Part shown: positions 11,987 to 62,701 of the stretch, one piece after another
Layout: the number at the start of each line of letters is the position of its first letter
Position numbering within the stretch: position 1 is the stretch's first letter
Origin: Abiotrophia defectiva ATCC 49176
GTDB taxonomy: Bacteria; Bacillota; Bacilli; Lactobacillales; Aerococcaceae
Reading direction: 5' to 3'
Length of the DNA: 64,000 nucleotides
Assembly: GCF_037041345.1 (NCBI RefSeq)
Contig: NZ_CP146287.1
Location: 1,491,501 to 1,555,500, forward strand
Position numbers and translations under genes: made by a program
The notes under the pieces: model-generated
The model's input: only the letters and a program-made list of their open reading frames with translations
Databases searched by the model: none
Told to the model about the DNA's origin: nothing

Positions 11987-14900
11987 TTAGTCTTCATCTG
12001 TCGCTTGGCGCTTGCGCGTCGCAACTAGGCCGACACTTGCTAAGATAGTCAAGGCCACACCTGAGAAGAAGCTATAGTCTGGGGCTTCACCAGTTGCTGG
12101 TAAGAGCCCTTGTCTTTCTACCTCTGGCTCACTTGGAGCGACTGGTAGTGGTACAACGGTTGGCACATATTGTGCCGTCACCTTGCGCCCGTTGCGGTCA
12201 ACCCGAACCACGGTCACACCACTTGCTTGGCCTAAGAAGCCGGCTTCTGGTGTGAAGGTCACAGAACCATCTGGGTTAAGAACATAAGACCCTTCCCCTG
12301 GTACGGTTAATTCAGTTTGACCATTTTCGAAGGTAGCTGGGATGGTCAGATCCACATCGCCTTCAAAGACTGGCGTCCCGGTTTGTTTTTCACCTGGGTA
12401 GCCGGTTGAAGTCGTATCTTGTGTCTTCACTTGTCCGTAAACGGTTGGAATGTACTGAATCTTCAGTTCTTTCCCGTTGACATCACGACGGATAACCGTA
12501 ATTGGACTTGCCTGGCCAATAAAGTCTGGTTCTGGCGTGAAGGTCACTTCCCCTGTCTCAGGGTTGACGGTGTAAGTCCCTTGACCTGGAACGGTCACGC
12601 TGGTGACCCCACCCTCGAGATAAGCTGGAACTTTGGTATCCACTTGACCCTTGAATTCTGGTAACTTGCTTTGGCTTTGACCCTTCATGCCCTCGCTAGT
12701 CACGCTAGCGTTGACAACTGGTGAATAAGTCGCTTCAGCAGTTGTCCCGTTGACGTCAGTGGCTTGAATGCGGGCTGGGACTGGTTGACCCACGTAACCT
12801 GGATTTGGTGTGAAGGTCACGGTTCCGTCTTGGGATAAGCTGTAGGTCCCGACTTGCTTGCCCGCTTGGTCCAAGGCTGGAATAGTCGTGTCAGCCACAG
12901 CTTGGCCATTGACCACAAACTTGAGGCTGCCTGGGACTAAGTCCACGCTTTGTTCTGTGCCGTCAATATTGGCAGAACCTGGTACAAACTTAACTTGACC
13001 CGTTTGGGCTTGGTTAACCACGCCTGAAGAGTAGTCGTCGTTAGCACCTGGTTTAACTGGGATAACGGTCGCTTGGTAAGTAGCCGTCACTGGGGTGCCG
13101 TTCTTATCGACGCGTTTAACCGTCAATGGTGAACCTTGGCCCGTGAAGGTCTTCTCTGGAACAAACTCGATGGAGCCATCTGCTTGGATGGTGTAGACCC
13201 CTTCGCCGATGACAGACTTACTTGTCTTGCCATCTTCAAAGGTCATTGGCACCGTCTCATCAATTGGCACCGATGAATTTCCTGGCGTAAAGACTGGACG
13301 AGCCGTTTGTTTCTTGCCCTGCACTCCAGTTGAAGTGGCTGGCGTGCTAGTTGGCGTTACCTTAGTCACGGTTGGGGTGTAAGTTGCGGTGACTGGTGTA
13401 CCGTTCTTGTCTACACGTTTAACTGTCACTGGGTCTGGCGTACCAACAAATTGCTTGTCTGGCGTGAAAGTAATGGAACCATCTGGGTTGATGGTGTAGA
13501 CACCAACGTTTGGCACAGCCTTAGTGCTTGAGCCATCCTCGAAGGTCATTGGACTATCCACATCGATTGGCACTGCTGGGTCACCTGGAGTGAAGACTGG
13601 CGTCGCTGTCTGTGGTTGACCTTGAACACCCGTCGAAGTCGCTGGTGTGCTGGTTGGTGTTACCTTAGTCACGGTTGGGGTGTAAGTTGCGGTGACTGGT
13701 GTACCGTTCTTGTCGACACGTTTGACCGTGACAGGATCTGGTGTCCCAACATATTGCTTGTCTGGGGTGAAGGTAATGGAACCATCTGGGTTGATGGTGT
13801 AGACACCAACGTTTGGCACAGTCTTAGTACTTGAGCCGTCCTCGAAGGTCATTGGGCTATCCGCATCAATTGGTACCAATGGGTTCCCTTCAGTAAAGGT
13901 TGGCGTGCCCTTTTGTGGTTGACCTTGAACACCATTTGATTCAGCGTTGGTGCTGGTTGGCGTTACCTTGGTTACGGTTGGAGTGTAGGTAGCCGTTACT
14001 TCCGTACCGTTCTTGTCGACACGTTTAACTGTCACCGGATCTGGGGTCCCAACATATTGCTTGTCTGGGGTGAAGGTAATGGAGCCATCTGGGTTGATGG
14101 AGTACTCACCTACACCTGGAACCTTCTTCGTGCTTGACCCGTCTTCGAAAGTCATTGGACTATCCACATCGATTGGCACGGCTGAGTCACCTGGTGTGAA
14201 GACTGGACTGCCGGTTTGTGGCATACCTTGGACACCTGTTGAAGTGGCTGGCGTGCTGGTTGGTGTTACCTTAGTCACGGTTGGAGTATAAGTAGCAGTC
14301 ACAGGTGTCCCGTTCTTGTCTACACGTTTGATAGTGACTGGGGCTGGTGTCCCTACGTATTGCTTGTCTGGAGTGAAAGTAATGGAACCATCTGGGTTGA
14401 TGGTGTAGACACCGACACCTGGCACAGTCTTAGTTGGCTGGCCGTCTTCGAAAGTCATTGGGCTATCCAAGTCGATTGGCACGGCTGAGTCACCTGGTGT
14501 GAAGACTGGGGTTCCTGTTTGTGGAACGCCTTGAACGCCGTTCGATGTGGCGTCAGTGCTTGTTGGTGTTACTTTCGTCACAGTTGGCGTGTACTTAGCA
14601 GTGACTTCCGTACCGTTCTTGTCCACACGCTTAACAGTAACTGGGTCTGGGGTTCCAACGTATTGCTTGTCTGGCGTAAAGGTAATCGTACCATCTGATT
14701 CAATGACATAGGTCCCGACATTTGGCACCTTCTTAGTGCTTGACCCATCCTCGAAAGTCATTGGCTTAGCGTCATCAAGTGGTACCAACGGATCACCCTC
14801 GGTGAATGTTGGCTTACCCTTTTGTGGTTGGCCTTGAACACCACTTGACTCAGCGTTGGTGCTGGTTGGCGTTACTTGCGTAACGTTTGGCTGATAAACT

Positions 14901-17900
14901 GCATCTGCAGTAGAACCATTGCTGTCTGTTACGCGAAGGCGTGCAGGAGTAGGTGTTCCGTAGAAATCAGGAGCAGGCTGGAAGCTAATCTCCCCATTTG
15001 GTTTAACTGTATAGGTTCCTTGTACCTTGCCACTTGCGTCGCTAACTGCCAAGGTATTACCCTGTTGAACTTGCCCATCCACAACGAATTGTGGTCCAGC
15101 TGGGTTTAATGGAACTGTTTGAGTTTGATTATTAACAGTTGCTTGACCCGGTGTGAAGTTAAGTTGGCTAGTTTGAAGTTGCCCTTGAAGCCCAGTAGTC
15201 TGAGTATCTTGGCCTGTAGGGGTTGCAGCCTTGACATCGGCTTGATAAGTAGCAGTTACTTCTGTCCCGTTCTTATCCACACGTTTAACCGTTTCAGGAT
15301 TTGGACGACCAGTATAGCCAGGAAGTGGTTGGAAGGTTACACGTCCTGTATTATCCACTGTATAAGTCCCAACACCTGGAACTTCCTTAGTTGATTTTCC
15401 ATTGTCAAAAGTTGGTGCAACGGCTTCATCAATTGGCACACGGCTATCACCTGGAGTGAAGACTAGGTTTCCGGATTGCTCAGCCCCTTGAATACCTTCA
15501 GAGCTTGCGTTCTGACCTGTTGGTACAACTGGCGTCACCTTCGGTTGGTAAGTCGCTCGGTGAGGTTGCCCAGAAGCATCATTTACTTGTAAATTAACTG
15601 GATCTACCGTCCCAACAAATGACTTGTTTGGAGTGAAAGTTACGCGACCTGTTGCTAGATCTAAGTTAAAGGTCCCGACTTCCTTACCACCAGAAGTTGC
15701 TGGAATACTTGTCCCTGATACAGGATTACCCTCAGCATCTAAGAAAGTAGCTGGATTGCTAGCCGATGGCTGAACAGGTGTGTTGGCTGGATCCCCATCA
15801 TTAAAGACGATGTCTTTTTCTTGTGGTAAACCTTGTGCGTCGGTTGAAACGTTCTCAGTATGCTTCAATACATTTGGAACATAACGAGCGTCCATAGTAT
15901 TGAGCGTATCACTTACAGGTGCTTCTGAATTGTTCTTAGCGGTCCAGTTAGTGTCTGATCCGTTGGTATCAAAACGACGAATATTAATCCCTGCTGCTTT
16001 ACCAGTAAAACCTGCCGCAGGCTCAAAAACAACATTAACGTCAGCGCCATCTGCGGTCACTTTATAGCGTCCTTCTGTCGTAGTATACCATCCCTCACCA
16101 TTTGGTGTTAGGGTCTGCCCTGTATTATCTAAAACGATTGGTGCTTTGTTGGTGTCAATGGCTGCTTTGGCATTCTCATCGTTCTTATCAACACCACGAG
16201 GAGTAAAGTGAAGGGTTGCTTTTTGTTGTTGATCTTGTAAACCAAAAGTCTCCTTCTTCTCACCTTTTGGTGGATAGGTTAAGAGCACTTCTAAGTCCTC
16301 TACTTCCCCACTAAATGCTGTTCCAGTAGGTTTTTCAATATCCCCTTGATTCAAGGCAATACGAACACGCATCCCAATCTTGTTAACCTGATCATTTGTC
16401 ATCGGCGGATGATTTTTGAAGTTAACAGTGAAGTCGCCTTCACCCGTTACTTCAGTGAAATCACTGGCTTCATTATCATCAAACTTTCCGTTTTGGTTGA
16501 AGTCCATCCAAGCACGAACATATGCCTTGGCATTGCCATTGACATTTGCGTGGAAACGAACGGAGTAATTTCCGTCACGAAGACGATCTGCCCGGAAAAG
16601 ATTGTGAGTCTGATTAACTAAATCATCAGGCAAGAGTTGCTTGATACCCTCATCGGCGTGGTCTGTATTATCATCGTGAGTCCAATCACCGCCAGAAGAC
16701 GTGTCAATATCGGCTTTCACCCTACCTAGATAAGGTTGAGGGCTAGGATTCCCTGTCTCTGCATCGTAGCCAGAAATAGCGTGAACTGCTGTCCCATAAG
16801 TTTCAGGAGCATCCCCTTCATCAACAACCATAAAACCTATCATAGCCCCTTGTTGACCGGAAGAAGCAATATAAATTCCCACTTCAGAAGCCCCACGACT
16901 CATAACAAGTGGCACCGTATAGCCATTTGAAACATTAGGACCAAAAACTTGGGAACCTAGCCCCCCCGTTTTTTGATCTGGATTAGTATAGGCATGCCAA
17001 TAAACCTTACTCCCTTCTTCCCCGATATATTGACCATCAGTGTTAGGAAGCATTGCATAATAGGTATCCGTAATTTCGGTCCCATCTGGGCGGACACGTT
17101 TCCATTCAGCCAAGTGCTCCCAGCCTTGCCCATTTGTAGTAAATATAGCATACTCACCTGGGTTGGCTTCTTCGCCATCGGCCATAACTACAGTCGCCTT
17201 AACTGGCTTGTTAAGATAAGTTGCTTCAACATTGAAAGTCACCCCATAGTTAGCACCGTTGCGTGGCACTTGTAATTGGGTCAATCGCCCTTTAGTATTG
17301 ATTCCTTGATCTCTAATAGCTGTCCATTGGTTCTGAGCTGCCCCTATAATTTTAGGACGGTAGTCATCTCCATTGTTCTGCTGATCATTGTATTCAGGCG
17401 CATATGTCAGCCATGTATTCTTAGCATTCGGATTGTAGCTAGCTGCATGCTCAGTCCCCTGAACACGATTACGATAGATTTCGGTTGAGTTAAAGGGTTT
17501 TAAGTCCGTAACCGTCAATTTAACCCGATATCCTGGCGAAATTTCTTTTTCATAGACGGTTCCTACTTTAAGGGAACCATTGTCCAAATTCGAAATTGAA
17601 TTAGGGTCAGATAAATCTAGCCAATTGATTTGCTTCATTAAATCAGCTGGTCTCTTATTCTCCGAATCAGCCAAGGTAGGCTTCGATACCGTATTATTAG
17701 GATTGCCATCCCGCAAACTATTAGATGTAACATCTCGACGTACTCGGCGAGAACGACTAGTCTGTAATGCTTCCACAGAAGGCACTGGTCGATCTTCATT
17801 TGTTGCTTGACTAGAAGCAGAATGAATAGGGCCTTCTGAGGATTCTTGGGGCTTATTCAAACTCTCTTCTTCTTTAAGTTTTTCCCTAGATTCTATTGGA

Positions 17901-18184
17901 TCACTTCCTTGATCCGTTGAAGCAAGACTATCTACTTCTGAGGCTTGATTTAGGTTAACCTCGGGGGCTAGCGATTGATCGCTCGCTTCGGCCACTACTT
18001 CGTAATCTACACTACTTGTTACACCGCTATAATCTTGGGCCTCCGCAGTTGCACCATTAGCAAAATAAATACCACAGGCTACTGCTACAGAGGCTGCGCC
18101 AAAGCTAAACTTCTTAATCGTATAGCGCGTGATTATCTCGCCCTGTTTTTTATCATTCATCTGGCGATTATTCTTACTAAACAT
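11987..18184 (-). CDS. CshA-type giant fibrillar adhesin, YSIRK signal and LPXTG anchor
   Basis: 2065-residue cell-wall-anchored surface protein. Signal peptide of YSIRK type: YTIKKFSFGAASVAVACG (about 21-38), ending near AEAQ. A Ser/Glu-rich region to about 150 is followed by basic RSRRVRRD. A CshA-like non-repetitive region (about 190-460) leads to a GEVEDY-type domain (about 470-650), with FDDNEASD and GEVEDLEVLLTY. Then come 13 CshA-type fibril repeats of ~100 residues, each with G-x-Y-x-[IV]-x-x-x-G-x-[IV]-x-F-x-P and R-V-D-K-N-G. The C-terminus is LPATGE, a hydrophobic span and RKRQATDED. Sortase A (35734-36555) should anchor it. In streptococci CshA binds fibronectin and makes fibrils; the ligand here is inferred. 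GAGGAG precedes ATG by 8 bases. It ends at its own terminator, so it is monocistronic. Confidence 0.93.
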   Translation of the reverse strand: MFSKNNRQMNDKKQGEIITRYTIKKFSFGAASVAVACGIYFANGATAEAQDYSGVTSSVDYEVVAEASDQSLAPEVNLNQASEVDSLASTDQGSDPIESREKLKEEESLNKPQESSEGPIHSASSQATNEDRPVPSVEALQTSRSRRVRRDVTSNSLRDGNPNNTVSKPTLADSENKRPADLMKQINWLDLSDPNSISNLDNGSLKVGTVYEKEISPGYRVKLTVTDLKPFNSTEIYRNRVQGTEHAASYNPNAKNTWLTYAPEYNDQQNNGDDYRPKIIGAAQNQWTAIRDQGINTKGRLTQLQVPRNGANYGVTFNVEATYLNKPVKATVVMADGEEANPGEYAIFTTNGQGWEHLAEWKRVRPDGTEITDTYYAMLPNTDGQYIGEEGSKVYWHAYTNPDQKTGGLGSQVFGPNVSNGYTVPLVMSRGASEVGIYIASSGQQGAMIGFMVVDEGDAPETYGTAVHAISGYDAETGNPSPQPYLGRVKADIDTSSGGDWTHDDNTDHADEGIKQLLPDDLVNQTHNLFRADRLRDGNYSVRFHANVNGNAKAYVRAWMDFNQNGKFDDNEASDFTEVTGEGDFTVNFKNHPPMTNDQVNKIGMRVRIALNQGDIEKPTGTAFSGEVEDLEVLLTYPPKGEKKETFGLQDQQQKATLHFTPRGVDKNDENAKAAIDTNKAPIVLDNTGQTLTPNGEGWYTTTEGRYKVTADGADVNVVFEPAAGFTGKAAGINIRRFDTNGSDTNWTAKNNSEAPVSDTLNTMDARYVPNVLKHTENVSTDAQGLPQEKDIVFNDGDPANTPVQPSASNPATFLDAEGNPVSGTSIPATSGGKEVGTFNLDLATGRVTFTPNKSFVGTVDPVNLQVNDASGQPHRATYQPKVTPVVPTGQNASSEGIQGAEQSGNLVFTPGDSRVPIDEAVAPTFDNGKSTKEVPGVGTYTVDNTGRVTFQPLPGYTGRPNPETVKRVDKNGTEVTATYQADVKAATPTGQDTQTTGLQGQLQTSQLNFTPGQATVNNQTQTVPLNPAGPQFVVDGQVQQGNTLAVSDASGKVQGTYTVKPNGEISFQPAPDFYGTPTPARLRVTDSNGSTADAVYQPNVTQVTPTSTNAESSGVQGQPQKGKPTFTEGDPLVPLDDAKPMTFEDGSSTKKVPNVGTYVIESDGTITFTPDKQYVGTPDPVTVKRVDKNGTEVTAKYTPTVTKVTPTSTDATSNGVQGVPQTGTPVFTPGDSAVPIDLDSPMTFEDGQPTKTVPGVGVYTINPDGSITFTPDKQYVGTPAPVTIKRVDKNGTPVTATYTPTVTKVTPTSTPATSTGVQGMPQTGSPVFTPGDSAVPIDVDSPMTFEDGSSTKKVPGVGEYSINPDGSITFTPDKQYVGTPDPVTVKRVDKNGTEVTATYTPTVTKVTPTSTNAESNGVQGQPQKGTPTFTEGNPLVPIDADSPMTFEDGSSTKTVPNVGVYTINPDGSITFTPDKQYVGTPDPVTVKRVDKNGTPVTATYTPTVTKVTPTSTPATSTGVQGQPQTATPVFTPGDPAVPIDVDSPMTFEDGSSTKAVPNVGVYTINPDGSITFTPDKQFVGTPDPVTVKRVDKNGTPVTATYTPTVTKVTPTSTPATSTGVQGKKQTARPVFTPGNSSVPIDETVPMTFEDGKTSKSVIGEGVYTIQADGSIEFVPEKTFTGQGSPLTVKRVDKNGTPVTATYQATVIPVKPGANDDYSSGVVNQAQTGQVKFVPGSANIDGTEQSVDLVPGSLKFVVNGQAVADTTIPALDQAGKQVGTYSLSQDGTVTFTPNPGYVGQPVPARIQATDVNGTTAEATYSPVVNASVTSEGMKGQSQSKLPEFKGQVDTKVPAYLEGGVTSVTVPGQGTYTVNPETGEVTFTPEPDFIGQASPITVIRRDVNGKELKIQYIPTVYGQVKTQDTTSTGYPGEKQTGTPVFEGDVDLTIPATFENGQTELTVPGEGSYVLNPDGSVTFTPEAGFLGQASGVTVVRVDRNGRKVTAQYVPTVVPLPVAPSEPEVERQGLLPATGEAPDYSFFSGVALTILASVGLVATRKRQATDED
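12140..16255 (-). repeat. Array of 13 CshA-type ~300-bp coding repeats
   Basis: Inside the adhesin gene. The six central units (about 13060-14870) are nearly identical at DNA level, with recurring VDKNGT and TFEDG coding segments. The outer units are diverged. Units 5 and 8 share a variant start (NAES-GVQGQPQKG-PTFTEG) while 6, 7, 9 and 10 share a different one (ATS-GVQG...PVFTPG), giving a three-unit higher-order period. Short-read assembly and copy number here should be treated with caution. Confidence 0.9.
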
Positions 18185-52652: not shown

Positions 52653-53162
52653 ATGGAAAATCTTTTGTGGTTATTTCCCGTCATTTTTATGCTACATGAG
52701 ATGGAAGAAATCATTGGCTTTGGTCCATGGCTGGACAAAAATCAAGCGATTTTAGACAAGTACCCTAGAATTGCAGCTGCCTATGAGCACTTTTCCCCTT
52801 CAGGCTTTGCAGTGGCAGTCTTAGAGGAGTATCTAGTGGTGATTATCATCACCGGCGCTAGCCTGTATTTTGCTAACTATCTGGTCTGGTTGGGAGCCTT
52901 TATAGCCTTCAGCCTGCATCTCCTCATCCACCTGATCCAAAGCATCCTGATTAGAAAATATATTCCTGCCCTAGCTAGCAGCCTAGTGCTGCTTCCCCCC
53001 AGCATCTTGATTATCAAGCAAGTAATCGATCAAACGAACTATAGCCTCCTAAGCCTCCTAATCTGGACCTTGCTAGGGCTAATTTTCATGGTGGTGAACC
53101 TGGCTTTTGCCCATCAATTGATGCGGTTAGTGACGAAAAGCCTTAAATCTCAGAAATCCTAG
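52653..53162 (+). CDS. HXXEE-domain membrane protein
   Basis: 169-residue polytopic membrane protein with five or so hydrophobic segments. The defining motif HEMEE lies near residue 15, in FMLHEMEEIIGFGPWL. A second conserved spot is AVLEEYLVVIIITGA, and His-rich LHLLIHLIQS sits in the middle. The paired His and Glu residues in the membrane suggest metal binding or proton transfer; the family is uncharacterised. GAGGGAGG precedes ATG. Its strong promoter and own terminator make it a single-gene unit beside, but opposite to, the lipid operon. Confidence 0.82.
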   Translation: MENLLWLFPVIFMLHEMEEIIGFGPWLDKNQAILDKYPRIAAAYEHFSPSGFAVAVLEEYLVVIIITGASLYFANYLVWLGAFIAFSLHLLIHLIQSILIRKYIPALASSLVLLPPSILIIKQVIDQTNYSLLSLLIWTLLGLIFMVVNLAFAHQLMRLVTKSLKSQKS

Positions 53163-53180: not shown

Positions 53181-53219
53181 TGTAAAAAGCTCGCACTTAT
53201 CCCAAGTGCGAGCTTTTTT
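53181..53219. terminator. Bidirectional terminator, end of the lipid operon
   Basis: 15-bp stem AAAAAGCTCGCACTT / AAGTGCGAGCTTTTT with an ATCCC loop (53184-53218). It overlaps the stop codon of the GNAT-like gene and serves the convergent HXXEE gene. Confidence 0.95.
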
Positions 53220-54285
53220 ATAGTAAGAGTTGATAGAGTCCATAAGTATGGCTAGTTCCCTGTAAGTCAGCAGCATAGTGACGTGTCAGTGTATGCTGAT
53301 GTATTAAGGCGCCAACGGCAGAAGCCCCTCTGGCTTGAGCTTGCTTAAAAATTGGATAGCTCAATGCTGACCCCAAACCCAAATACTGTGGATCTACTCC
53401 TAGGTAGAGTATGATGTAGCGTTTGGCTCGATGCTTAATCCAAAGCAATTTGGCTAAAGTAAATAAATTTAACTTTTGATAAACCAAGGCTCCATAGTCT
53501 GGCATGGTAATCAGAAAACCCACTAGCTTTTCCTCCTGATAGGCCACCTTAACCATAGAAAAATCCAGAATATAACGATACTTCTCGAAGATAGCACTAA
53601 ATTGCCTCCCCTGCAAGGAACGGTAAATAGGAAAATCTCGGTAAAGTCGATTCAAGAGTTCAAACACTTGTAAGGACACCTCAGTCCAATCCGACTTGTG
53701 GGGGGATCGAATCTTAATCCCTGCTGCTAAGGCAGCCTCATAACGCTTAGCTAGTTTGGCTTCCTGGGTAGTGGGACTTACCTTAGGATAGAAATTAGAC
53801 AGATAGCTTTCGGTCAGTTTGAATCCCGCTGCCTCCCAGAGCTTGGGGTAATAAGCCGGCTGATGGGGCTCGCCAGTAAAAGGTAAGTCCTCATGGCCAG
53901 ATAGCTGCATGCGATAGCCTAACCAAAAACTAGCCTGAACAGGGCCAATGAGTTTTTCAGCCCCTAAGTTGCGGGCCTGTTCAGCTATGTAAGCTATAAA
54001 CTGCTTGGTCATGTCCACATCATCTAAGGACTCAAAATAGCCTAAGAAGCAAGTGCCATCGACTGGATAATAAGTCAGCAAGCCTCGAATCTGAACTTGC
54101 TGGTCTTGGTAACCGACAAAGGCTCTCACTTCTATTTCCGGGCTAAGTGGATGGGTCCCACTAATCAGACTTTCTTCCTCTTCAGGTGACTGCATTAAGT
54201 GCCCCTTTCCGTAAAGTTTCTGCGGCAAGGCTAGAAAGTCGACTAGCTCCGGCGAATGAGGCTGCACAGCTTTAATGGTCAGCAT
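53218..54285 (-). CDS. GNAT-like acyltransferase, last gene of the lipid operon
   Basis: 355 residues, apparently two GNAT-type halves. In the first half, GLLTYYPVDGTCFLGYFESLDD and LIGPVQASFWLGYRMQ followed by HQPAYYPKLWEAAGF are landmarks of an uncharacterised family of large GNAT proteins. The second half has VGFLITMPDYGAL and ILYLGVDPQYLGLGSALSYPIFK, resembling the acetyl-CoA loop (here Q-Y-L-G-L-G-S-A). There is no signal or membrane span. It could acylate an amine or hydroxyl of the operon's lipid product or a precursor. ATG overlaps the dikinase gene by 14 bases with GGAGGAGG as ribosome site, so it belongs firmly to the operon. The substrate is unknown. Confidence 0.72.
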   Translation of the reverse strand: MLTIKAVQPHSPELVDFLALPQKLYGKGHLMQSPEEEESLISGTHPLSPEIEVRAFVGYQDQQVQIRGLLTYYPVDGTCFLGYFESLDDVDMTKQFIAYIAEQARNLGAEKLIGPVQASFWLGYRMQLSGHEDLPFTGEPHQPAYYPKLWEAAGFKLTESYLSNFYPKVSPTTQEAKLAKRYEAALAAGIKIRSPHKSDWTEVSLQVFELLNRLYRDFPIYRSLQGRQFSAIFEKYRYILDFSMVKVAYQEEKLVGFLITMPDYGALVYQKLNLFTLAKLLWIKHRAKRYIILYLGVDPQYLGLGSALSYPIFKQAQARGASAVGALIHQHTLTRHYAADLQGTSHTYGLYQLLL

Positions 54286-56746
54286 GGTCCGCCTCCTCCA
54301 AAATGGTTACTTGGCCGCTTAAGCCATCCATCTCAATCCAATCCCCACTTTTCAGCAATTGCGTAGCACCCCGCACATTCACAACTGATGGAATGCCTAG
54401 CTCACGCGAAATAATGGCTGTATGAGACAGGAGGGATCCTTGCTCAGCGATGACCCCTTGGGCTTGAGTTAAGAGATAGACCCACCCTGGATCTGTCATT
54501 CTGGTTACCATAATCTTACCTTGAGCAGATTCAATGGCTTGAACATCGTCCACTACTAGCACTTGGCCCTTAACTCGACCAGGCGAGCAACCAATCCCTT
54601 GAAGGTGTTCTGCCCGACTCAATTGGCTACGTGCCTGCCCTGAAAATCGCACAAACTTCTCAAATACTTGACCCAAGAAAACATAGCGGCTGAAGTTTGG
54701 TAAGGTCCTGTCACCCGCTAGCTTGGCACGTCTTTCTGAAATCAGGTCCGATACTGAGTGTGGCTGTCTGGCCAATTCAAAGATTTCTTCCTTGGTCAGA
54801 TAGAAGATGTCTTCTTCTGTCTCTAAATAGCCTTGCTTGGCAAGTTGCGCCCCAATGGCTCGAAAAATCATCCGCATCATCCCATAAATCCGTGTCCGAT
54901 TTAGTCTTGAGCTTTCTCGGTACTTAACGCCAGTCATAGCGCGACGGCGTAAAAAGCTCGTCCACCAACTCCTTGGTCGATTGCTTGCGGCACTTGAGGC
55001 TTTTAGGTCAGGAGCGTCTTGCTGGCACATTTGAACCAACAAGGATAAGAGGCCTTGTGGATGGGTACGGAAGGTCGGTGTTTCTAGTTTCAGTTCTTCG
55101 GGTGCCCGGTCACCAAATTCTTGGATAAAATCTAGGATCTTGGCTACTAAGGGATCTTGTCGATTTAAAAAGTCTGCTGCATCTTCATTTTCTAGTGTCT
55201 GACGAAGAGCTTGGTTCTTGGGATGCTTGAGCTCCTCAACTAAGTCCTGAAGGGCTAGCGCCGGCCGCATACTTTCAATCTGTTCAATACCGGCGATTTC
55301 TGCCTGAACATCTTGTCCATGACGCGACTTTTTCAATAAACCCGTATAGACAAAGGCATAAAGATCATTAATCAAGGTAATATCCCAATGTGCTAGAATC
55401 TCATCCTTAAGCTGTACAACTAGAGCTATCAACTGCTCTAAATCCGCATCTGGCGAGAAGCGCTCTTGAAAGACTGCTTGAATCCGGATGAATTCCTGTT
55501 CTAGCTGGGCCATTTGCTTAGGCGCAGTGAAAAACTCACGCACGATTCGGCCCATAATCTTAAGTCGTTTCCAAGGCGAGAGATGGACCGGCATGGCCGG
55601 TACTTCCGTCTCCCTCACACCCAGCATATCTTGCCAGATAGGAATAATCTTTTTAGAGAAAGGCAACAATTGCAGAAGCTGGTACCAACTTTGAATTTGA
55701 TAGTAGACTCGACTATTGACTGGACAGAGCATATTCTGGAAGGTCGGCTCATAGGCAGCCAATTCAGCTGCCTCCTTGCCCACCAACCTTTGAGCCAAGC
55801 CACGGAATATACTCGCATAGGCTTCTTGAATAAAACTGATAGTTAAGGGTGTAGAGAGACCTGGATAGCTCTCCACAATATTACTATTATCCAGAATGAT
55901 TTGCTTGCCTTGTGGCAAAGTAGTAATGGGACGAGCCTGTAAGATGTAGAGCCGGTCTCCTTGGAAGGTAAACTCCAAATCCAGATAGGGGCCAAAAAGC
56001 GCCATGGCTTGCTGGGCTAAGGATTCTAGGTCCCCTAATTGACTAGTTGTTAAACTTGGGGCGCCTGGCTCTTGTTCCGTATAGGATAGCTGATCTGCCG
56101 GATGATAAGTCACCATGCTAGTAGGCACCTTATCTTCTACAATTTGATCACCTAATCCCTGTCCCACAACCACAATGTGCTCGTTGAGAATTCCCTTAGG
56201 GTTGGCTGTAAAATAAACACCAGATAAATCTCCCTTAATCATGACTTGAACCAAACAGTTCATCTGAGCTTCCGGCAGGCTAATCCCTTGCTTAAAGAGA
56301 TAAGCTAGAGCGGATACCTGATAGAGGGACAAGAAAGTATGCTCTAGAGACTGGGGTAAGTGGTCGATTGGGACATCTAGCTGGCTTTCAAATTGCCCGG
56401 CAAAAGATGAGACGGCACCGTCTTCAATGCTAGCAGATGAACGAACTGCCAAACGCACCTGACCAGATGGGAAAGTTTGCTTGGCCCAGCTCAGCACAGG
56501 ACTTAAATCTTCCTTAGCAAAACTCTCTTTAGCCCAAGCCAGTAGTTCTTGACTCAGCTGATCCAAACTTAGATTACCCGCCTGATAGGCTGCTTCCTGA
56601 CTAGCCAGGAAATCCATGCTGTCCGCTTGATCAAAACAGTCAAAGGCAAAGACAGCAAAACTAGGAACTGGTAGCCCAGCTTTGGTCATTTCCATGAGGT
56701 GGTAGGCTTTCCCTCCCACTTTCTGGGGATCATAGACTTGTTTCAT
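54272..56746 (-). CDS. PEP-synthase/rifampicin-phosphotransferase-like dikinase 2
   Basis: 824 residues. N-terminal ATP-grasp (PPDK_N-like, about 1-280): KVGGKAYHLMEM, the loop RSSASIEDGAVSSFAGQFES at 102-121, GVYFTANPKG and LEFTFQGDRLYILQARPITTLP. Then a long helical middle region (about 290-700). Last comes the swivelling phospho-His domain with His775 in LLSHTAIISRELGIPSV. The C-terminal PEP/pyruvate barrel of true PEP synthase is missing, so the order ATP-middle-His is that of rifampicin phosphotransferase. Such enzymes move the beta-phosphate of ATP to an alcohol through His, giving AMP and phosphate. Start ATG overlaps the UbiA stop (TAATG). The acceptor here is unknown; a lipid alcohol is the contextual guess. 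Confidence 0.82.
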   Translation of the reverse strand: MKQVYDPQKVGGKAYHLMEMTKAGLPVPSFAVFAFDCFDQADSMDFLASQEAAYQAGNLSLDQLSQELLAWAKESFAKEDLSPVLSWAKQTFPSGQVRLAVRSSASIEDGAVSSFAGQFESQLDVPIDHLPQSLEHTFLSLYQVSALAYLFKQGISLPEAQMNCLVQVMIKGDLSGVYFTANPKGILNEHIVVVGQGLGDQIVEDKVPTSMVTYHPADQLSYTEQEPGAPSLTTSQLGDLESLAQQAMALFGPYLDLEFTFQGDRLYILQARPITTLPQGKQIILDNSNIVESYPGLSTPLTISFIQEAYASIFRGLAQRLVGKEAAELAAYEPTFQNMLCPVNSRVYYQIQSWYQLLQLLPFSKKIIPIWQDMLGVRETEVPAMPVHLSPWKRLKIMGRIVREFFTAPKQMAQLEQEFIRIQAVFQERFSPDADLEQLIALVVQLKDEILAHWDITLINDLYAFVYTGLLKKSRHGQDVQAEIAGIEQIESMRPALALQDLVEELKHPKNQALRQTLENEDAADFLNRQDPLVAKILDFIQEFGDRAPEELKLETPTFRTHPQGLLSLLVQMCQQDAPDLKASSAASNRPRSWWTSFLRRRAMTGVKYRESSRLNRTRIYGMMRMIFRAIGAQLAKQGYLETEEDIFYLTKEEIFELARQPHSVSDLISERRAKLAGDRTLPNFSRYVFLGQVFEKFVRFSGQARSQLSRAEHLQGIGCSPGRVKGQVLVVDDVQAIESAQGKIMVTRMTDPGWVYLLTQAQGVIAEQGSLLSHTAIISRELGIPSVVNVRGATQLLKSGDWIEMDGLSGQVTILEEADHADH

Positions 56747-57645
56747 TAGAAGACTCCCATCAAGAGGTAGACAGCTACTGAGACGACCATGGTGGTCTCA
56801 GTAATATAGGTATAACGCTCAACTCTTTCCCGGATATTGAAGAGGGTTGGGTCCTTAATGAACTGTTCGAACTGAACCGTCATCCAGATAACATTAAGCA
56901 CCAAGACCACGACCCCTACATGAGAAATATTCCAGAGCAGAAGGAAGTTGGTCATAATATCCAGAATAGTGACTATTTCGATGAAACGGGTAGCCTTCTT
57001 ATAACCGAAGAGCTTGGAGTAAGTCACATATTCTGTCTCATCTTTTGGTGCTCGAATCTTACGACAGACTTCCCAAATCAAGCTTGGGAAGTACATGGTG
57101 AAGGCCAAGAGGACGGTCGGAACTGACAATAGGGGCAGATTGTACTTATAACATACGAAGGAAATAGTATAAAGATTCAGAATCATCATGACCGGATTAT
57201 GGGTCACCAAGGCTAAAGGCAATGAATTCTGAATTTTATCTCGCTTAAAGAACCAGAAAGACATCAAGGTTCCGTAGATATAGAGGAAGAGGAACCAAAA
57301 GATATTATTCATGAAGAAGATATTCAACATAACAGAGACCGTGACGATAAAGGCTAAGGCGATAGCCAAGTCCTTTTTCTTGACCCGCCCTGACGGCAAA
57401 GCCCGATGGGGGAAGAGTCGTTGGTCGGTCTCATAGTCCTTGAAGTCATCTGCAATGCGTAAAATCATCAAGAATACAAAAATGGTGAAAATCCCAATCA
57501 ATTCTTGATGGTTGAAATTAAAGCTGGTCACCCCGTCATTTAACAAGAGGACAAAATAAATCTCGAAAAACATAATGGCTGCCACGATAAAACGCGACCC
57601 CAGCGGAAACATTTCCTTATAATAAATCGCTAAACGCTTAAACAT
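56746..57645 (-). CDS. UbiA-superfamily prenyltransferase
   Basis: 299 residues, about eight or nine membrane segments. The first Asp-rich motif is RIADDFKDYETDQRLFPHRALPSGRV (D-D-x-x-D-x-x-x-D, about residues 66-87 from the chosen start). The second is in the second half, KIRAPKDETEYVTYSKLFG, with the Tyr-Ser and acidic residues that hold the other magnesium. UbiA enzymes move a prenyl chain from its diphosphate to an aromatic ring or, in archaea, to geranylgeranylglyceryl phosphate. No quinone or haem genes are near; the neighbours are phospholipid genes, so a lipid acceptor is more likely. ATG 57645 lies within the end of psd, with AGGTG as ribosome site; GTG at 57654 is an alternative. 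Confidence 0.85.
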   Translation of the reverse strand: MFKRLAIYYKEMFPLGSRFIVAAIMFFEIYFVLLLNDGVTSFNFNHQELIGIFTIFVFLMILRIADDFKDYETDQRLFPHRALPSGRVKKKDLAIALAFIVTVSVMLNIFFMNNIFWFLFLYIYGTLMSFWFFKRDKIQNSLPLALVTHNPVMMILNLYTISFVCYKYNLPLLSVPTVLLAFTMYFPSLIWEVCRKIRAPKDETEYVTYSKLFGYKKATRFIEIVTILDIMTNFLLLWNISHVGVVVLVLNVIWMTVQFEQFIKDPTLFNIRERVERYTYITETTMVVSVAVYLLMGVF

Positions 57646-58501
57646 GTTTAACACCTATCCTTTCACCCATTCTGACCTGGCTTTCGATACCTAAGTCTGA
57701 GTAATATCTAATATCTTGGTCCAGCTCAATACGATTTGCTGGATATAGTACGACGATAGTGGACCCACCTAAGCCAAAGTAGCCCTTCTCCTGGCCTCTG
57801 ACTAGGTAAGTTTGATGATGGTTATAAATTCGACCGACTAGCAGTGCACCAATTTCCATCTGGAGAACTGGCCCCTCTTCTGTCTCAATCAGACAGTAAT
57901 GCCGGCTATTCTCACGATAAATCAAACGCTGGGCTTGGGCTACTTCCCTTACACTATGCAACTTGCCCTTGATGCTTTTCTGATGGGTAATTACCCCAGA
58001 TTCAATGGCTAAATAGCGATGCAAGTCTTCGACCCCTAGACGGAATACTAAGGCTAGCCCACCTTGGAAGGACTGCGCTAGTTGGTCATCTTCCAATAAT
58101 TCTGCCAAATCATAGCTTTGGCCCTTTAAGACCAAACTTAAGTCTTCATGAATATCAAAACCTTGTAATTTGGCGTCGGCTACGGCCAATACTTCCCCTT
58201 CTGGACAGACAGGGCGTAAGTCTGGCTGAATTTTTCGCTGGAAAAAGGCTGCAAAGTGGGGATAGGTCCCCTCTTGGTAGTCAGCCAGAGACAGGTCATA
58301 GGTCTCTAGGAACTTTCTTACCTTAGCTTTTGACCAAGGCAAGTAATCACTTAGGGTCAGCAGATAGGAGATGCTAGGCCGTGTCAACAGAGGGAGGAGC
58401 CATCGCCCCCATCTAGTCTGGTAGAGGCGATTAACCAAGCCTTCTTGATAGACCACAGGCTCTATGACCCGACCACTTTGACGCTGGTAGACCTTAACCA
58501 T
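57638..58501 (-). CDS. psd: Phosphatidylserine decarboxylase
   Basis: Pyruvoyl enzyme converting a phosphatidylserine-type lipid to its ethanolamine form at the membrane. 287 residues. FFQRKIQPDLRPV and VLKGQSYDLAELLED are typical of PSDs. The self-cleavage motif GLGGSTIVVL has Ser247, which becomes the pyruvoyl group after cutting between Gly246 and Ser247. The catalytic His is in VEDLHRYLA. The gene overlaps pssA by 8 bases and UbiA by 8. Phosphatidylethanolamine synthesis is unusual for Lactobacillales, whose membranes usually lack this pathway. Confidence 0.93.
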   Translation of the reverse strand: MVKVYQRQSGRVIEPVVYQEGLVNRLYQTRWGRWLLPLLTRPSISYLLTLSDYLPWSKAKVRKFLETYDLSLADYQEGTYPHFAAFFQRKIQPDLRPVCPEGEVLAVADAKLQGFDIHEDLSLVLKGQSYDLAELLEDDQLAQSFQGGLALVFRLGVEDLHRYLAIESGVITHQKSIKGKLHSVREVAQAQRLIYRENSRHYCLIETEEGPVLQMEIGALLVGRIYNHHQTYLVRGQEKGYFGLGGSTIVVLYPANRIELDQDIRYYSDLGIESQVRMGERIGVKHV

Positions 58502-59123
58502 AAGGCAATACCCAAAGCCCGATTAGACTAAGAATCGCTAATAAGGCAAAAGCCAGATAAGCCTTCTTGTTAGGCTTAGGAATGGGCTGATTCCAGACGA
58601 ATAGGCCGCTTAAGAGAAAGGCTAATCCCAACCAAAGCCAAGTATAGAGTCCAGGCGCCAGCCATTGACCTAATAGATAGCTTAAGGGAAAGCACAAGGC
58701 GCCATAAGTAACGGGAACCCCGATGAAATATTGCCCACTGCCCTCATCATGCTTGGCCAAGCGATTAAAGTGGCCCAAGCGCGTCACGGCTGCTAGCACA
58801 TAGATAATAGCTGGCAAGAGATTGGCAGGTCCAAGGGCTAGCTGAGACATGAGAAGAAAAGCTGGCAAGGCAGCAAAGCTAATCATGTCGCAGAGTGAAT
58901 CAATTTCAATGCCAAAACGTTCCTGTTCTGGTGTCCGTGGTAAGCGTCTAGCCACTACACCGTCGAAGAGATCACAAATTCCACTAAGGATAAAGGCCAT
59001 CATGGCTAGTCGGACCTGCCCTTGTAAGGTCCAATAGATAGCTACTAAAGCAAAGGTTGCTCCCAAGTAAGTAAGTATGACCGACTTATCATACTCTCCA
59101 ATCAAATAGTTTTTAATCTTCAT
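58494..59123 (-). CDS. pssA: CDP-alcohol phosphatidyltransferase, phosphatidylserine synthase type
   Basis: Membrane enzyme joining a CDP-activated lipid to serine. 209 residues, six or so hydrophobic segments. The CDP-OH-P motif reads CDLFDGVVARR...FGIEIDSLCD (Asp51, Asp54, Gly55, Ala58, Arg59, Gly71, Asp75, Asp79). Between Arg and Gly there are 11 residues instead of the classical 8, a variant (R-x(4)-T-x-x-E-x-x-F-G) that I associate with serine-type enzymes of Firmicutes. The start is ATG 59123, inside the end of the upstream dikinase gene, with GAAAGGA 12 bases before it; the frame opens at 59150 without a ribosome site. Followed directly by psd, which supports serine as acceptor. Confidence 0.88.
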   Translation of the reverse strand: MKIKNYLIGEYDKSVILTYLGATFALVAIYWTLQGQVRLAMMAFILSGICDLFDGVVARRLPRTPEQERFGIEIDSLCDMISFAALPAFLLMSQLALGPANLLPAIIYVLAAVTRLGHFNRLAKHDEGSGQYFIGVPVTYGALCFPLSYLLGQWLAPGLYTWLWLGLAFLLSGLFVWNQPIPKPNKKAYLAFALLAILSLIGLWVLPYG

Positions 59124-61605
59124 GTAGATGAATCTTTCCTTTCTCTGCATCTAGCGTGACTAGCATGCCCGTTTTGAGCCTCTTGCTTGCTTCTTGGACA
59201 CAAACCAGAGCCGGAATACCACATTCACGGGCCACAATGGAGGCATGACAGAGTACTCCGCCCGTCTCCGTAATCAGGCCTCCCAAGATGCCAAAGACAT
59301 AGCTCCAACCCGTATCGGTATATGCTGTCACTAAAATCTCACCCGGTTGAATGCTAGCTATATCTGCCAAGTCTAAAATCACGCGCACTCGCCCCGTGAC
59401 CTGACCACTGCTAGCAGGCATGCCACTCAAGTAAGCTTCCTGACTGCCTTGTGGGAGCGGTTGGAAATTACCTTCTGTTAAGTCTCCTAGAGCCTGACAT
59501 TTATCATAGGACTGGCAATAATGACGATCCTGGTTGACTAGTTGCTGTAGGTCAATACTTCTATCTTTGTCATTCATGAAGGCTAAGAGATCCCATTTGG
59601 TTAGATAGAAGATATCTTCCACTTGCTCTAAGTAGCCTTGTTTAAGATAGGCTCGACCCAAAGCCAGGCTGACTTGTCGAATCAGGTGGTAAGCATGAGT
59701 TGAGCAATCCTTAAACTCCTCTCGCCACCACAATAAGTGACGTAAGGAGTTCGCAATCTTCTTAATTTTGCGGCTTTGACGTCCTGTCAAGCCACTAGGT
59801 AGCCCTTGATGCTTGTGCTGTCTGACCAGAGACTTTTGCGCCTTATCATAATAAGCATCGTCAAGCACTAGGCGTTGGATTAGCGCTAAAATTTGTTCAG
59901 GTTCTTCCATGTAACTTGGTACCCTCAAGTCCAGTTCCCGCCTTGAATGGTGACCAAACTTAACCATAAAATCAGCCAAGGCCTTAAAATCATCCCGCTG
60001 CCCTTCTTGATGAGCAAGTTTTAATAAGCCTGGCACTGTTTGCTGCGTCCAATCGTTTTTTATCAGCGGCCGACTTCGAATAATACTAGCTAAGGCTAGC
60101 ATTTCTTCTAAAGGCTGGGTATGGGAAATATTACCTAGGTCTGCAATCAATTGAAAGAACTGGTCTTGGCTTAACCATTTGAGTAACCTTGTCTTTTGCA
60201 TGGAGAGCTGGACCGTATTGATGTAGGCTTGCCAGAAATAAGTCTGCTCCGTTTTTCTGTAGCAGTCTAAAATAACTTGACGCCAGAGGGCCTCAACTTG
60301 TTCCAAGGGCGTCTCGTAACTTAGGTTTGCAATCTCGGACTCTAGCTGCTTAAAGTTGTCCTGTAAGTTAGATAAGTTTTCAGGGGCTGCTTTCATGAAC
60401 TTTTTGGTAAGGCTTTGTGTCTTCCAAGCCACCTTGATGAAGCGTGTCAGAAGACCCAAACTTAACTGACTTCGGTATCCTCTACCCTCGTAATCCTTAT
60501 TAACCCCTAGCTCATCATCGAAATCCCGTTCAATGTAACCAGGAATTTGCTGCATGGCTGCTTTGACTACCCCTAAATTCCAGTAGGGACGAGCATGATG
60601 CCGGCGCATCAAGTCCGGCATAGGACCACTAGGGGCTAAGTCAATGGCCTCCAAGAAGCTCGACAAGGACTCTTGCCAAGCATCAAAGTAGAGACTCCAC
60701 ATGAGATTAGGGCAGGATTGAGCTGCCACACCGCCATCGCGAAAATTAGCTGTCGTCCAACGTCCTTGGCTGACTCGAGTAGGCAGCGTCGTCATAGGGC
60801 GAGCCTGAACTAGATAGACTTGGTCACCGCAGGCACACCACTCGACATCCATTGGGCGACCAAAGTGGGCGCTAATAAGCATGGCTTGTTCATGAAGTCT
60901 GGCCAGTAGGGCTTGGGATAGACCACTGGCTGCAGCTAGCTTCAAATCCGGTTCATACCAAGCTAAGCTTAATCGCTTTGGATTCACGCGTCCACTGACT
61001 AACTGCTCTCCCGCTCCAGCTACATATTCGATCAGCATCTCTTGGTCTTGATTAGATTCAGGGTTCAAGGTAAAGTAGACCCCACTATAATCAGGCTGAC
61101 ATTGCTCCTGAATCAAAATGGCTAAGCCAAAGTCCTGCCAGGATCGCCCTTGGCGATGCCAGTAAGCAAGGGCTTGAGGTTTAAGTAATGACAAGATGCA
61201 AGCTTTAATCCCAGCTGTAATTGATGACATAGTCTGGCAATTTGATATCGAGTCATATTGACCGGCAAAAGAAGTCGTCGCCTGGTCCTCCAAGAGAGCA
61301 CTACTGCGAACAATATAGGTCTTACCGTCCTCTATAAAATTCTCCAGAGCTGCCTCCCATTTAGCAGGCAGATTCTGACTTTCTAACCTTTCTTGCACCA
61401 CTTTTTGATCTAACTTGAGCCACTTGTCCCAATCTAGTCTTGGGCTTGCTAATTCTGGCCAGCAATCAGCTAGCCAGGTCATAACTTGCTCGGCTGATAG
61501 AATAAGTCCATTTGGCACTGGGAGATTGAGCTGCCTCAGATCCAAAAGATGATTAATTTTCCCCCCATAGCTTGGGGTCTGTTTGGCTTGGTAGAGTGTA
61601 TCCAT
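59113..61605 (-). CDS. PEP-synthase/rifampicin-phosphotransferase-like dikinase 1
   Basis: 830 residues and the same plan as the second dikinase in the operon: ATP-grasp with SYGGKINHLLDL, RSSALLEDQATTSFAGQYDS (about 100-119), GVYFTLNPES and VEWCACGDQVYLVQARPMTTLP; a helical middle part (about 300-720); then the phospho-His domain with His787 in VLCHASIVARECGIPALV. Shared landmarks such as YLE-x-x-EDIFYLTK show the two are paralogues, but their middle (acceptor-binding) regions differ strongly, so they probably phosphorylate different molecules. The PEP/pyruvate domain is absent. AGGAGTG precedes ATG, 10 bases after carS stops. Confidence 0.82.
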   Translation of the reverse strand: MDTLYQAKQTPSYGGKINHLLDLRQLNLPVPNGLILSAEQVMTWLADCWPELASPRLDWDKWLKLDQKVVQERLESQNLPAKWEAALENFIEDGKTYIVRSSALLEDQATTSFAGQYDSISNCQTMSSITAGIKACILSLLKPQALAYWHRQGRSWQDFGLAILIQEQCQPDYSGVYFTLNPESNQDQEMLIEYVAGAGEQLVSGRVNPKRLSLAWYEPDLKLAAASGLSQALLARLHEQAMLISAHFGRPMDVEWCACGDQVYLVQARPMTTLPTRVSQGRWTTANFRDGGVAAQSCPNLMWSLYFDAWQESLSSFLEAIDLAPSGPMPDLMRRHHARPYWNLGVVKAAMQQIPGYIERDFDDELGVNKDYEGRGYRSQLSLGLLTRFIKVAWKTQSLTKKFMKAAPENLSNLQDNFKQLESEIANLSYETPLEQVEALWRQVILDCYRKTEQTYFWQAYINTVQLSMQKTRLLKWLSQDQFFQLIADLGNISHTQPLEEMLALASIIRSRPLIKNDWTQQTVPGLLKLAHQEGQRDDFKALADFMVKFGHHSRRELDLRVPSYMEEPEQILALIQRLVLDDAYYDKAQKSLVRQHKHQGLPSGLTGRQSRKIKKIANSLRHLLWWREEFKDCSTHAYHLIRQVSLALGRAYLKQGYLEQVEDIFYLTKWDLLAFMNDKDRSIDLQQLVNQDRHYCQSYDKCQALGDLTEGNFQPLPQGSQEAYLSGMPASSGQVTGRVRVILDLADIASIQPGEILVTAYTDTGWSYVFGILGGLITETGGVLCHASIVARECGIPALVCVQEASKRLKTGMLVTLDAEKGKIHLHED

Positions 61606-61615
61606 TTCATCACTC

Positions 61616-62206
61616 CTATAATCGATTTTGTCTCAATCTCGCTAGATATAGTAGACGATTAACTCCTAAGTGGGTCAATGTCCCTACAAGCAATAGGCCA
61701 ATGACTTGTGCCCAATCTAACGAAATATAAAGGTGTAAGACCAAGAGAATTCCGATTAAGGAATCAATCTGATCCAGCAAAATAAAAGGATACTTCCAAG
61801 CATCCTTAGCGGTCTTACCCGGTGAAATATCTAGGCGACGCTTGAGATAAGAATTAGGTAATTCAAACACCACATAGGCCAAGCCCAAGAGGATACCCAG
61901 TGGAAAGTTAGTTGCCAGCTTATTCGGATAATGAGCATAAATCAAATGGAGTTTCTCTAAATCCGGCTGACGCGCCAGAAAAAAAGACCAAATTAATTGA
62001 GCAAGTAAGCCCCAGACTACCATCCCCCAGAAGCCCTTCCAGGTCTTATTAGCCCCAAAAAGACGACGACCATCCCCTAGTAGGCGCCCAGCATCAATGG
62101 GTTGGTTGACTGAGTCTAATAGGGAAGATTTACAAAATATCATATTAGCAATACCTGCCAATATGACTGGCATAAGAGTCAGATAAAGAGAGAGAATCAT
62201 GGACAT
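61616..62206 (-). CDS. CarS/CdsA-like CTP:lipid-phosphate cytidylyltransferase
   Basis: 196-residue membrane protein with about five hydrophobic segments. It carries the CDP-archaeol synthase (CarS, DUF46) landmarks: FGANKTWKGFWGMV (about 50-63), FELPNSYLKRRLDISPGKTA (about 113-132) and LLDQIDSLIG with the metal-binding D-Q-x-D. In archaea CarS makes CDP-archaeol from CTP and unsaturated archaetidic acid; bacterial members presumably activate another lipid phosphate. It would supply the CDP substrate of pssA downstream. First gene of the seven-gene operon; AAAGGA lies 10 bases before ATG and the codon is reached through a long folded leader. Confidence 0.85.
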   Translation of the reverse strand: MSMILSLYLTLMPVILAGIANMIFCKSSLLDSVNQPIDAGRLLGDGRRLFGANKTWKGFWGMVVWGLLAQLIWSFFLARQPDLEKLHLIYAHYPNKLATNFPLGILLGLAYVVFELPNSYLKRRLDISPGKTAKDAWKYPFILLDQIDSLIGILLVLHLYISLDWAQVIGLLLVGTLTHLGVNRLLYLARLRQNRL

Positions 62207-62482
62207 GCTGCGTCATTCCTTTGAACTAATATAAGAACCAAACTGGCCGCATGAAAAGCAGCTAGTCGTCCGTCTCCTTGAAGAGAAGATAAGGAGCGAT
62301 ATACAAAAAGAAGCTAGGTCCCCCCAGCCTCCGCAATCGCTACTTAGACCTCGTCCCTCTTGGAAGAGCTAGCGAGCTAGTCTGATCTGTCTCAGTCTTG
62401 GCTCGCCTATTTTCTTACAAGATAAGAGGAGGGTCTGACTTATTATTTCTATAGTATACCATCAACTCTATAATCAAAACAA
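62207..62482 (-). promoter_or_regulatory. Promoter and structured ~240-nt leader of the lipid operon
   Basis: Minus-strand promoter TTGTTT (62482-62477), 18-base spacer, TATACT (62458-62453). The leader folds by eye: AGACC (62436-62432) pairs with GGTCT (62350-62346), CCTCTT (62429-62424) with AAGAGG (62361-62356), and inside them GCGAGC (62406-62401) with GCTCGC (62377-62372). The segment AGGTC (62351-62347) can instead pair with GACCT (62320-62316), followed by TTCTTTTT. AGCGAT/ATCGCT (62341-62336 with 62300-62295) crosses that helix. CTCCTT/AAGGAG (62296-62274) follows. GCTGC (62262-62258) can pair with GCGGC or with GCAGC directly before the start codon. It matches no riboswitch class that I recognise. 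Confidence 0.6.
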
Positions 62483-62664
62483 TATAGAACTCATATTCCT
62501 TACCGTGCTTATACGCTAGATATCCTATATTATAGGGATTTGAAGCTAATTACTGTGATAATTTAGATTGGTATTTCATTATATATAGATCTACAAAAAG
62601 GACTTTTATTATCATCTAGCGCAAATACTAACTTAGTATGCTTAATCCCTAGCCTTTCCCCCAC
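62483..62664. other. AT-rich intergenic stretch upstream of the lipid operon
   Basis: 182 bases between the promoter of the lipid operon and the gtrA terminator. AT-rich, with short repeats such as CTATATTATAGGG and TATATATAGATC. No gene or clear site recognised. Confidence 0.5.
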
Positions 62665-62696
62665 AAAAAAAGCTGACATCCTGAGATGTCAGCTTG
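62664..62696 (-). terminator. Terminator of the potD-gtrA unit
   Basis: 11-bp stem AAGCTGACATC / GATGTCAGCTT (62670-62695), followed on the minus strand by TTTTTTTG. Confidence 0.93.
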
Positions 62697-62701
62697 ATAC
62701 T

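Follow-up and report, generated by a model that had tools for sequence, protein, structure and literature searches.

The window analyzed here, a stretch of 64,000 nucleotides from a 2.05-Mb Abiotrophia genome, carries on its minus strand, from position 62206 down to 53218, seven tightly packed genes in the order CarS-DIK1-PssA-Psd-UbiA-DIK2-GNAT. The open reading frames of the window bear out the initial annotation on all seven genes and on their junctions, which consist, in order, of one 10-base gap and overlaps of 11, 8, 8, 1, and 14 bases. The first gene encodes a predicted CarS-like CTP:lipid-phosphate cytidylyltransferase (PF01864; 61616 to 62206, minus strand, as are all features of the operon). 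It is followed by genes for DIK1, an RPH-like dikinase with ATP-grasp, middle, and phospho-His domains (59113 to 61605); PssA, a predicted CDP-alcohol:serine phosphatidyltransferase (58494 to 59123, starting at the ATG at 59123; the longest open reading frame begins at 59150); Psd, a predicted phosphatidylserine-type decarboxylase (57638 to 58501); a predicted membrane prenyltransferase of the UbiA superfamily (56746 to 57645, starting at the ATG at 57645; the longest frame begins with the GTG at 57654); DIK2, a second RPH-like dikinase (54272 to 56746); and a predicted tandem-GNAT acyltransferase of the YghO family (53218 to 54285). Pfam and NCBIfam agree on PF01864, PPDK_N plus PEP-utilizers (twice), CDP-OH_P_transf, PS_Dcarbxylase, and UbiA, as the initial annotation had assigned them. 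At the DNA level, the operon genes are 94 to 96% identical to the A. defectiva ATCC 49176 genes used for comparison.

The expected terminator after the last gene is a strong, near-palindromic intrinsic terminator with a 16-pair stem (53184 to 53218), which may also serve the convergent gene directly beyond it (52653 to 53162), encoding an HXXEE-domain membrane protein of unassigned function. Upstream lies a 495-base leader (62207 to 62701) reaching from gtrA to CarS, with the terminator that closes off the GtrA gene at its upstream end. A promoter scan of the leader gave matches no better than chance (17 in the region versus 19.1 expected). The leader is 88.7% identical in A. defectiva and is conserved within Abiotrophia only; other genera show no homologous sequence. 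It could contain a regulatory RNA; this reading was set aside because of the restricted conservation, the lack of any Rfam match, and the weak fold of positions 62207 to 62480, which is only slightly better than that of shuffled sequences (z of -2.06, with 6 of 200 shuffles equally good). Elsewhere in the window (11987 to 18184) is a gene for a 2,065-amino-acid cell wall surface protein with 13 stretches of CshA repeats (a DNA repeat unit of 303 bases), a CshA_NR2 domain, a YSIRK signal, and an LPATG end.

CarS matches PF01864 with 63.6 bits against a cutoff of 22 (E value of 3e-17), with CTP_transf_1 under its cutoff, and its sole PDB enzyme match of note is the CDP-archaeol synthase 5guf (E value of 7e-6). 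With 72 bits against the 148-bit cutoff of the PRK04032 equivalog, the protein is, judged by its scores, CarS-like without being orthologous to the CarS of archaea. The latter is reported to favor unsaturated isoprenoid chains, to be unable to substitute for CdsA, and to tolerate ether or ester bonds and either glycerol stereochemistry (PMC9385802). PssA scores highest in NCBIfam with archaetidylserine synthase and PssA, falling under both equivalog cutoffs, and it has the conserved motif DG..AR........G...D...D. Psd is a clear match to PF02666 (150.9 bits; E value of 5e-44) with a conserved pyruvoyl-forming GGST motif, and is the sole Psd in the Abiotrophia genome.

The UbiA protein (NF010118; 567 bits) has seven hydrophobic segments and an Asp-rich motif 1 of the form (N/D)xxxDxxxD, in which D66, D70, and D74 are invariant in the family alignment. 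Its only meaningful PDB sequence match is the archaeal DGGGP synthase 6m31 (profile E value of 1.9e-4). What of the two dikinases? Both share the domain order of the RPH family (rifampin phosphotransferase and the PigC/RedH ligases), with ATP-grasp, middle, and phospho-His domains and the catalytic His in place. In DIK1, whose nearest PDB sequence is the Listeria rifampin phosphotransferase, the ATP-site RSS..ED and catalytic H787 are invariant; in DIK2 (NF004882; 1,238 bits), H775 is invariant and the ATP site is kept. The AF2 model of DIK2 (pLDDT of 87.8) matches Listeria RPH best (5fbt and 5hv1), over its whole length, at 19 to 22% identity and with a large rmsd that probably stems from domain movement. 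The two proteins score only 190 and 251 bits against the RPH equivalog NF041857 (cutoff of 999 bits), lie far under the cutoffs for PigC and true PEP synthase, and have no pyruvate TIM barrel. Roles in rifampin resistance or as PEP synthase were therefore rejected: neither dikinase should be named a rifampin resistance gene, and the "PEP synthase" name on NF004882 is an inherited annotation. Unlike characterized RPH family members, these dikinases sit in lipid operons, and DIK1 swaps with a lipid kinase, as described below.

The last gene product matches no Pfam family over threshold, yet its predicted structure fits the name acyltransferase. Its AF2 model (pLDDT of 92.9) is a tandem GNAT, with Z scores of 18 to 21 to several tandem GNATs. 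In hhalign comparisons, its profile matches Escherichia coli YghO with 98.9% probability (304 columns; E value of 1e-17) and a four-member YghO-type alignment with 99.8% probability (322 columns; E value of 1e-29); a PDB match of the profile to multicystatin was taken as spurious. YghO apparently represents a bacterial ceramide synthase family, presumably the counterpart of Caulobacter CC_1154, beside which it is set by gene order and not by sequence: a Roseomonas homologue lies between LptF/LptG-type permeases and a nucleotidyltransferase, with a CDP-alcohol transferase and a metallophosphoesterase nearby, a layout resembling the Caulobacter phosphosphingolipid locus. The ceramide N-acyltransferase of that region is CC_1154, and ceramide is phosphorylated there by the kinase CC_1160 (PMC11324152). 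Given this kinship, GNAT is more likely to supply one of the chains than to modify a lipid already completed; of the prenyl and acyl decoration first suggested for the product, the two groups are supported and the late acylation is less likely. By family, N-acylation of a long-chain base and O-acylation would be equally possible.

How widespread is this arrangement? A UbiA search across 84,980 species genomes, supplemented with loci from whole genomes, yielded 98 loci, 54 of them nonredundant (UbiA proteins less than 90% identical to one another). On the Lactobacillales side, they come from Streptococcus sanguinis, S. cristatus, S. gordonii, S. sinensis, S. ferus, and S. moroccensis, and from Desemzia, Enterococcus, Vaginisenegalia, Fundicoccus, and Ignavigranum; on the Clostridia side, from many Lachnospiraceae and Oscillospiraceae. 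The seven-gene order recurs in S. sanguinis, S. gordonii, S. cristatus, Desemzia, Fundicoccus, and many Clostridia. The arrangement is not due to chance, since gene order is nearly kept even where UbiA identity falls to about 35 to 60%. Conservation of the operon in these loci, a co-occurrence that the initial annotation had proposed looking for, speaks for its idea of one dedicated pathway; its impression of something peculiar to one lactic-type bacterium does not hold, since several Lactobacillales have the operon, as do a few percent of Clostridia. The carriers are scattered oral, gut, and rumen relatives, and the pathway is patchy: it was found in 12 of 149 relatives, in 8 of 391 Clostridia (one divergent), and in a single genome among 398 sampled across the phylum. 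Of four Abiotrophia genomes, two lack the operon, one of those two being only 77% complete. Spread of UbiA on plasmids was rejected, as a search of 72,556 plasmid records gave no match. The UbiA protein shares 92% of its amino acids with its S. sanguinis counterpart, compared with 57 to 73% for the other six proteins (57 to 74% with S. gordonii included), and fourfold positions, at 25 to 47% identity to the two species, show that synonymous sites are saturated. UbiA is thus under a constraint that is unusual for a membrane prenyltransferase and fits a role as the defining enzyme.

The operon consists of two modules: a core of UbiA, DIK2, and the tandem GNAT, and a head-group module of a kinase, CarS, PssA, and Psd. 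DIK2 accompanies UbiA in 51 of the 54 loci, the remaining three being cut contigs, and GNAT is present in 46; in Clostridia, the core often includes an acyl-AMP ligase as well. The core can stand alone, as judged from about 13 sampled clostridial genomes that carry UbiA-DIK2, most with GNAT and the acyl-AMP ligase, and have no CarS anywhere in the genome. No Psd was seen in 7 of 18 genomes tested, and in four Ruminococcus-type genomes Psd is missing from the cluster and found elsewhere in the genome. Conversely, clear CarS matches among the 149 relatives fall in exactly the 12 UbiA-positive genomes, all 12 of which have Psd. Taken together with the free-standing cores, this marks the head-group module as an add-on to the core, and the presence of PssA and Psd in the operon and of Psd in all 12 CarS-bearing relatives agrees with the ethanolamine head group that had been envisaged. 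The dikinases cannot stand in for each other: DIK2 is part of the UbiA core and, being inseparable from UbiA, must be tied to its reaction, and DIK1 is part of the head-group module.

Why would a head-group module include a dikinase? Many Clostridia carry a small gene of the DgkA family (PF01219) immediately upstream of CarS. DIK1 is found in 21 loci, DgkA in 19, and both in none (P of 7e-8 by a hypergeometric test over 45 CarS loci, which ignores kinship); in six CarS loci, the cluster contains neither. On the UbiA tree, the DIK1 label changes about five times and the DgkA label about four, with well-supported branches forcing at least three and at least two changes, respectively, so that one kinase has replaced the other repeatedly and the difference was not simply inherited once. 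In four genomes of the DgkA type, the operonic DgkA is the sole DgkA, and four of six clostridial genomes of the DIK1 type lack DgkA altogether. From this mutual exclusion and repeated swapping, DIK1 and DgkA probably act on one and the same lipid alcohol, each as its kinase. The early suggestion of a dikinase acting on an alcohol is thus strengthened for DIK1, and there is a reasonable likelihood that DIK1 is a lipid-alcohol kinase. To our knowledge, no RPH-type dikinase has been described in such a role.

What might the complete pathway look like? With a prenyl diphosphate as donor, UbiA would attach an isoprenoid chain to a small acceptor bearing hydroxyl groups, which DIK2 would ready by ATP-dependent phosphorylation. 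The YghO-type GNAT would add a fatty-acyl chain from acyl-ACP/CoA, supplied in Clostridia by the adjacent AMP ligase, so that the core module would deliver a two-chain lipid alcohol with one prenyl and one acyl chain. DIK1, or the DgkA-type kinase in other lineages, would phosphorylate this alcohol, CarS would activate the product with CTP, PssA would exchange CMP for serine on the CDP-lipid, and Psd would decarboxylate the serine lipid to give the ethanolamine head. As to the donor, no convincing match to GGGP synthase (PF01884/PcrB) was found in 23 operon genomes, with weak partial matches in four, one of them just over the cutoff; about 15 of the 23 have a single trans-prenyl synthase; and none of 26 operon genomes has a geranylgeranyl reductase over the TIGR02032 cutoff (matches under it, mostly short dinucleotide-binding ones, were ignored). 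The donor would therefore probably be a farnesyl diphosphate, which seems most likely, or a longer cis-prenyl diphosphate, and the chain unsaturated. The backbone should not be a normal sphingoid base, as no Kbl-like protein of the SPT family (alpha-oxoamine synthases) was found at an E value of 1e-10 in 24 of the 26 operon genomes, that of Abiotrophia included.

The steps of this scheme are not equally secure. The head-group chemistry is well supported, and the operon probably ends in an ethanolamine phospholipid. The structure of the core we infer; that it combines a prenyl and an acyl chain has a little less than an even chance. Each reaction is deduced from the chemistry of its enzyme family, and the identity of the acceptor, the chain length, the choice between an ester and an amide for the acyl bond, and the exact substrate of DIK2 are guesses. 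The model is at its weakest with DIK2, which could phosphorylate the UbiA acceptor or turn an alcohol into the diphosphate donor. Counting against the scheme are its call for two separate phosphorylations and the core without CarS in those roughly 13 clostridial genomes, 7 showing no Psd; in view of the latter, the two modules might act on different lipids. On balance, the odds are about even that a single two-module pathway leads to a phosphoethanolamine lipid of hybrid prenyl/acyl type, distinct from archaeol, ceramide, and ordinary phosphatidylethanolamine (PE).

Could the operon simply make PE? DIK1 or DgkA would then act on diacylglycerol, CarS would form CDP-diacylglycerol, and PssA and Psd would complete PE, with UbiA-DIK2-GNAT a separate pathway sharing the operon. 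The PssA and Psd steps are indeed those of the bacterial PE pathway (CdsA, PssA, Psd), the DgkA family includes diacylglycerol kinases, the core occurs alone in some Clostridia, the Abiotrophia genome has no further Psd, and Psd enzymes tolerate a broad range of substrates (PMC9385802). Unlike that pathway, the operon uses CarS for CdsA, has its own lipid-alcohol kinase, and is linked to UbiA, DIK2, and GNAT. Clear CarS matches never occur without UbiA in the 149 relatives, characterized archaeal members of the CarS family favor isoprenoid lipids, and weak CdsA-like matches are common in these genomes, which would leave no need for another CDP-diacylglycerol synthase. Ordinary PE is accordingly unlikely as the product. 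Quite improbable is a polyprenol-based ethanolamine lipid, for which UbiA would modify a polyprenol or move some other diphosphate-activated group, as does the mycobacterial decaprenyl-phosphate phosphoribosyl synthase. Gram-positive relatives of DgkA phosphorylate undecaprenol, and the single trans-prenyl synthase of most operon genomes would leave C15 and C55 as the main prenyl pools; however, the only meaningful PDB sequence relative of UbiA, DGGGPS, forms lipid ethers, and the acyltransferase would be left without a role.

Another alternative is a canonical sphingolipid pathway to ceramide phosphoethanolamine, with GNAT as the ceramide synthase. Here the Caulobacter phosphosphingolipid locus is instructive, comprising spt, cerR, cerS, aasR, the kinase CC_1160, the CDP-DAG-synthase-like CC_1161, and the CDP-alcohol transferase CC_1159, and thus pairing an N-acyltransferase with an acyl-activating enzyme, a lipid kinase, and enzymes for activation and head-group transfer (PMC11324152). 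Its logic is similar, in that a lipid alcohol made with an apparently related acyltransferase is phosphorylated, activated in CTP-type fashion, and passed to a CDP-alcohol transferase. The operon differs in having UbiA and DIK2 in place of SPT and CerR, and its kinase, cytidylyltransferase, and head group are not the same. Despite the YghO-type GNAT, a sphingolipid is very improbable, considering that 24 of the 26 operon genomes yielded no SPT-family relative, that CerR is not in the operon, and that UbiA would have no place.

The archaeal archaetidylethanolamine pathway (GGGPS, DGGGPS, CarS, Ass, Asd) also runs through UbiA-type prenyl transfer, CarS activation, serine transfer, and decarboxylation, and the likeness to a partial archaeal ether-lipid set that was remarked upon at first reading holds for UbiA, CarS, and PssA, which most resemble archaeal enzymes; it does not extend to the whole set, for the operon has two RPH-like dikinases, a lipid-alcohol kinase step, and an acyltransferase. 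A true archaeal-type diether lipid made by a bacterium was rejected as scarcely credible, as GGGP synthase was not found beyond the weak partial matches in 23 operon genomes, geranylgeranyl reductase was not found over its cutoff in 26, and the core includes an acyltransferase, for all that three enzymes fall in archaeal-lipid families.

Why would a hybrid prenyl/acyl lipid matter? Membrane lipids are usually divided into the fatty-acyl lipids of bacteria and the isoprenoid lipids of archaea, and Lactobacillales are generally thought to be free of PE. If bacteria common in the mouth and gut join archaeal-type to bacterial-type steps, they would straddle this lipid divide, and the pathway could yield unrecognized lipids to which the host is exposed. 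The broadest claim, that oral streptococci and gut Clostridia make a third kind of two-chain phospholipid, with an isoprenoid and a fatty-acyl chain on a shared backbone and an RPH-type dikinase as lipid-alcohol kinase, is offered tentatively and may well prove too bold. The pathway also suggests a role for an RPH-type dikinase as a lipid-alcohol kinase and, in a form open to testing, a function for two widespread families that are annotated just as "phosphoenolpyruvate synthase" and "prenyltransferase." This is a real and conserved system, and one that the literature searched leaves undescribed: in agreement with the initial annotation, no account of the gene set or its product was found in open-license PMC articles, a scope that makes this weak evidence of absence. 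Also counting against the scheme is a lipidomic survey covering S. sanguinis ATCC 10556, the strain of operon locus L020: PE and plasmalogens are reported at very low levels only and, as far as the available text goes, no prenyl lipid is named (PMC11052126). The survey worked from known lipid classes; it would not name a new prenyl lipid and so cannot exclude one.

Several variants are found at the edges of the family. In one genus of Abiotrophia's own family, a deep-branching form (L134, L136, L137, and L138) has CarS, PssA, Psd, UbiA, DIK2, and GNAT, and neither DIK1 nor DgkA in the cluster; its kinase would need to act from outside the cluster. Three Lactobacillales genomes encode PS-decarboxylase-like proteins of about 430 amino acids that are unrelated to the operon (L111, L112, L113, L117, L118, and L119), two or three of them near one another in two of the three genomes. 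Finally, a divergent clostridial version (L140, 9406 to 17364) has a UbiA scoring 91 bits, a clear DIK2, a distant GNAT set about 2.5 kb from DIK2, and the beginning of an AMP ligase, and it may make a different product.
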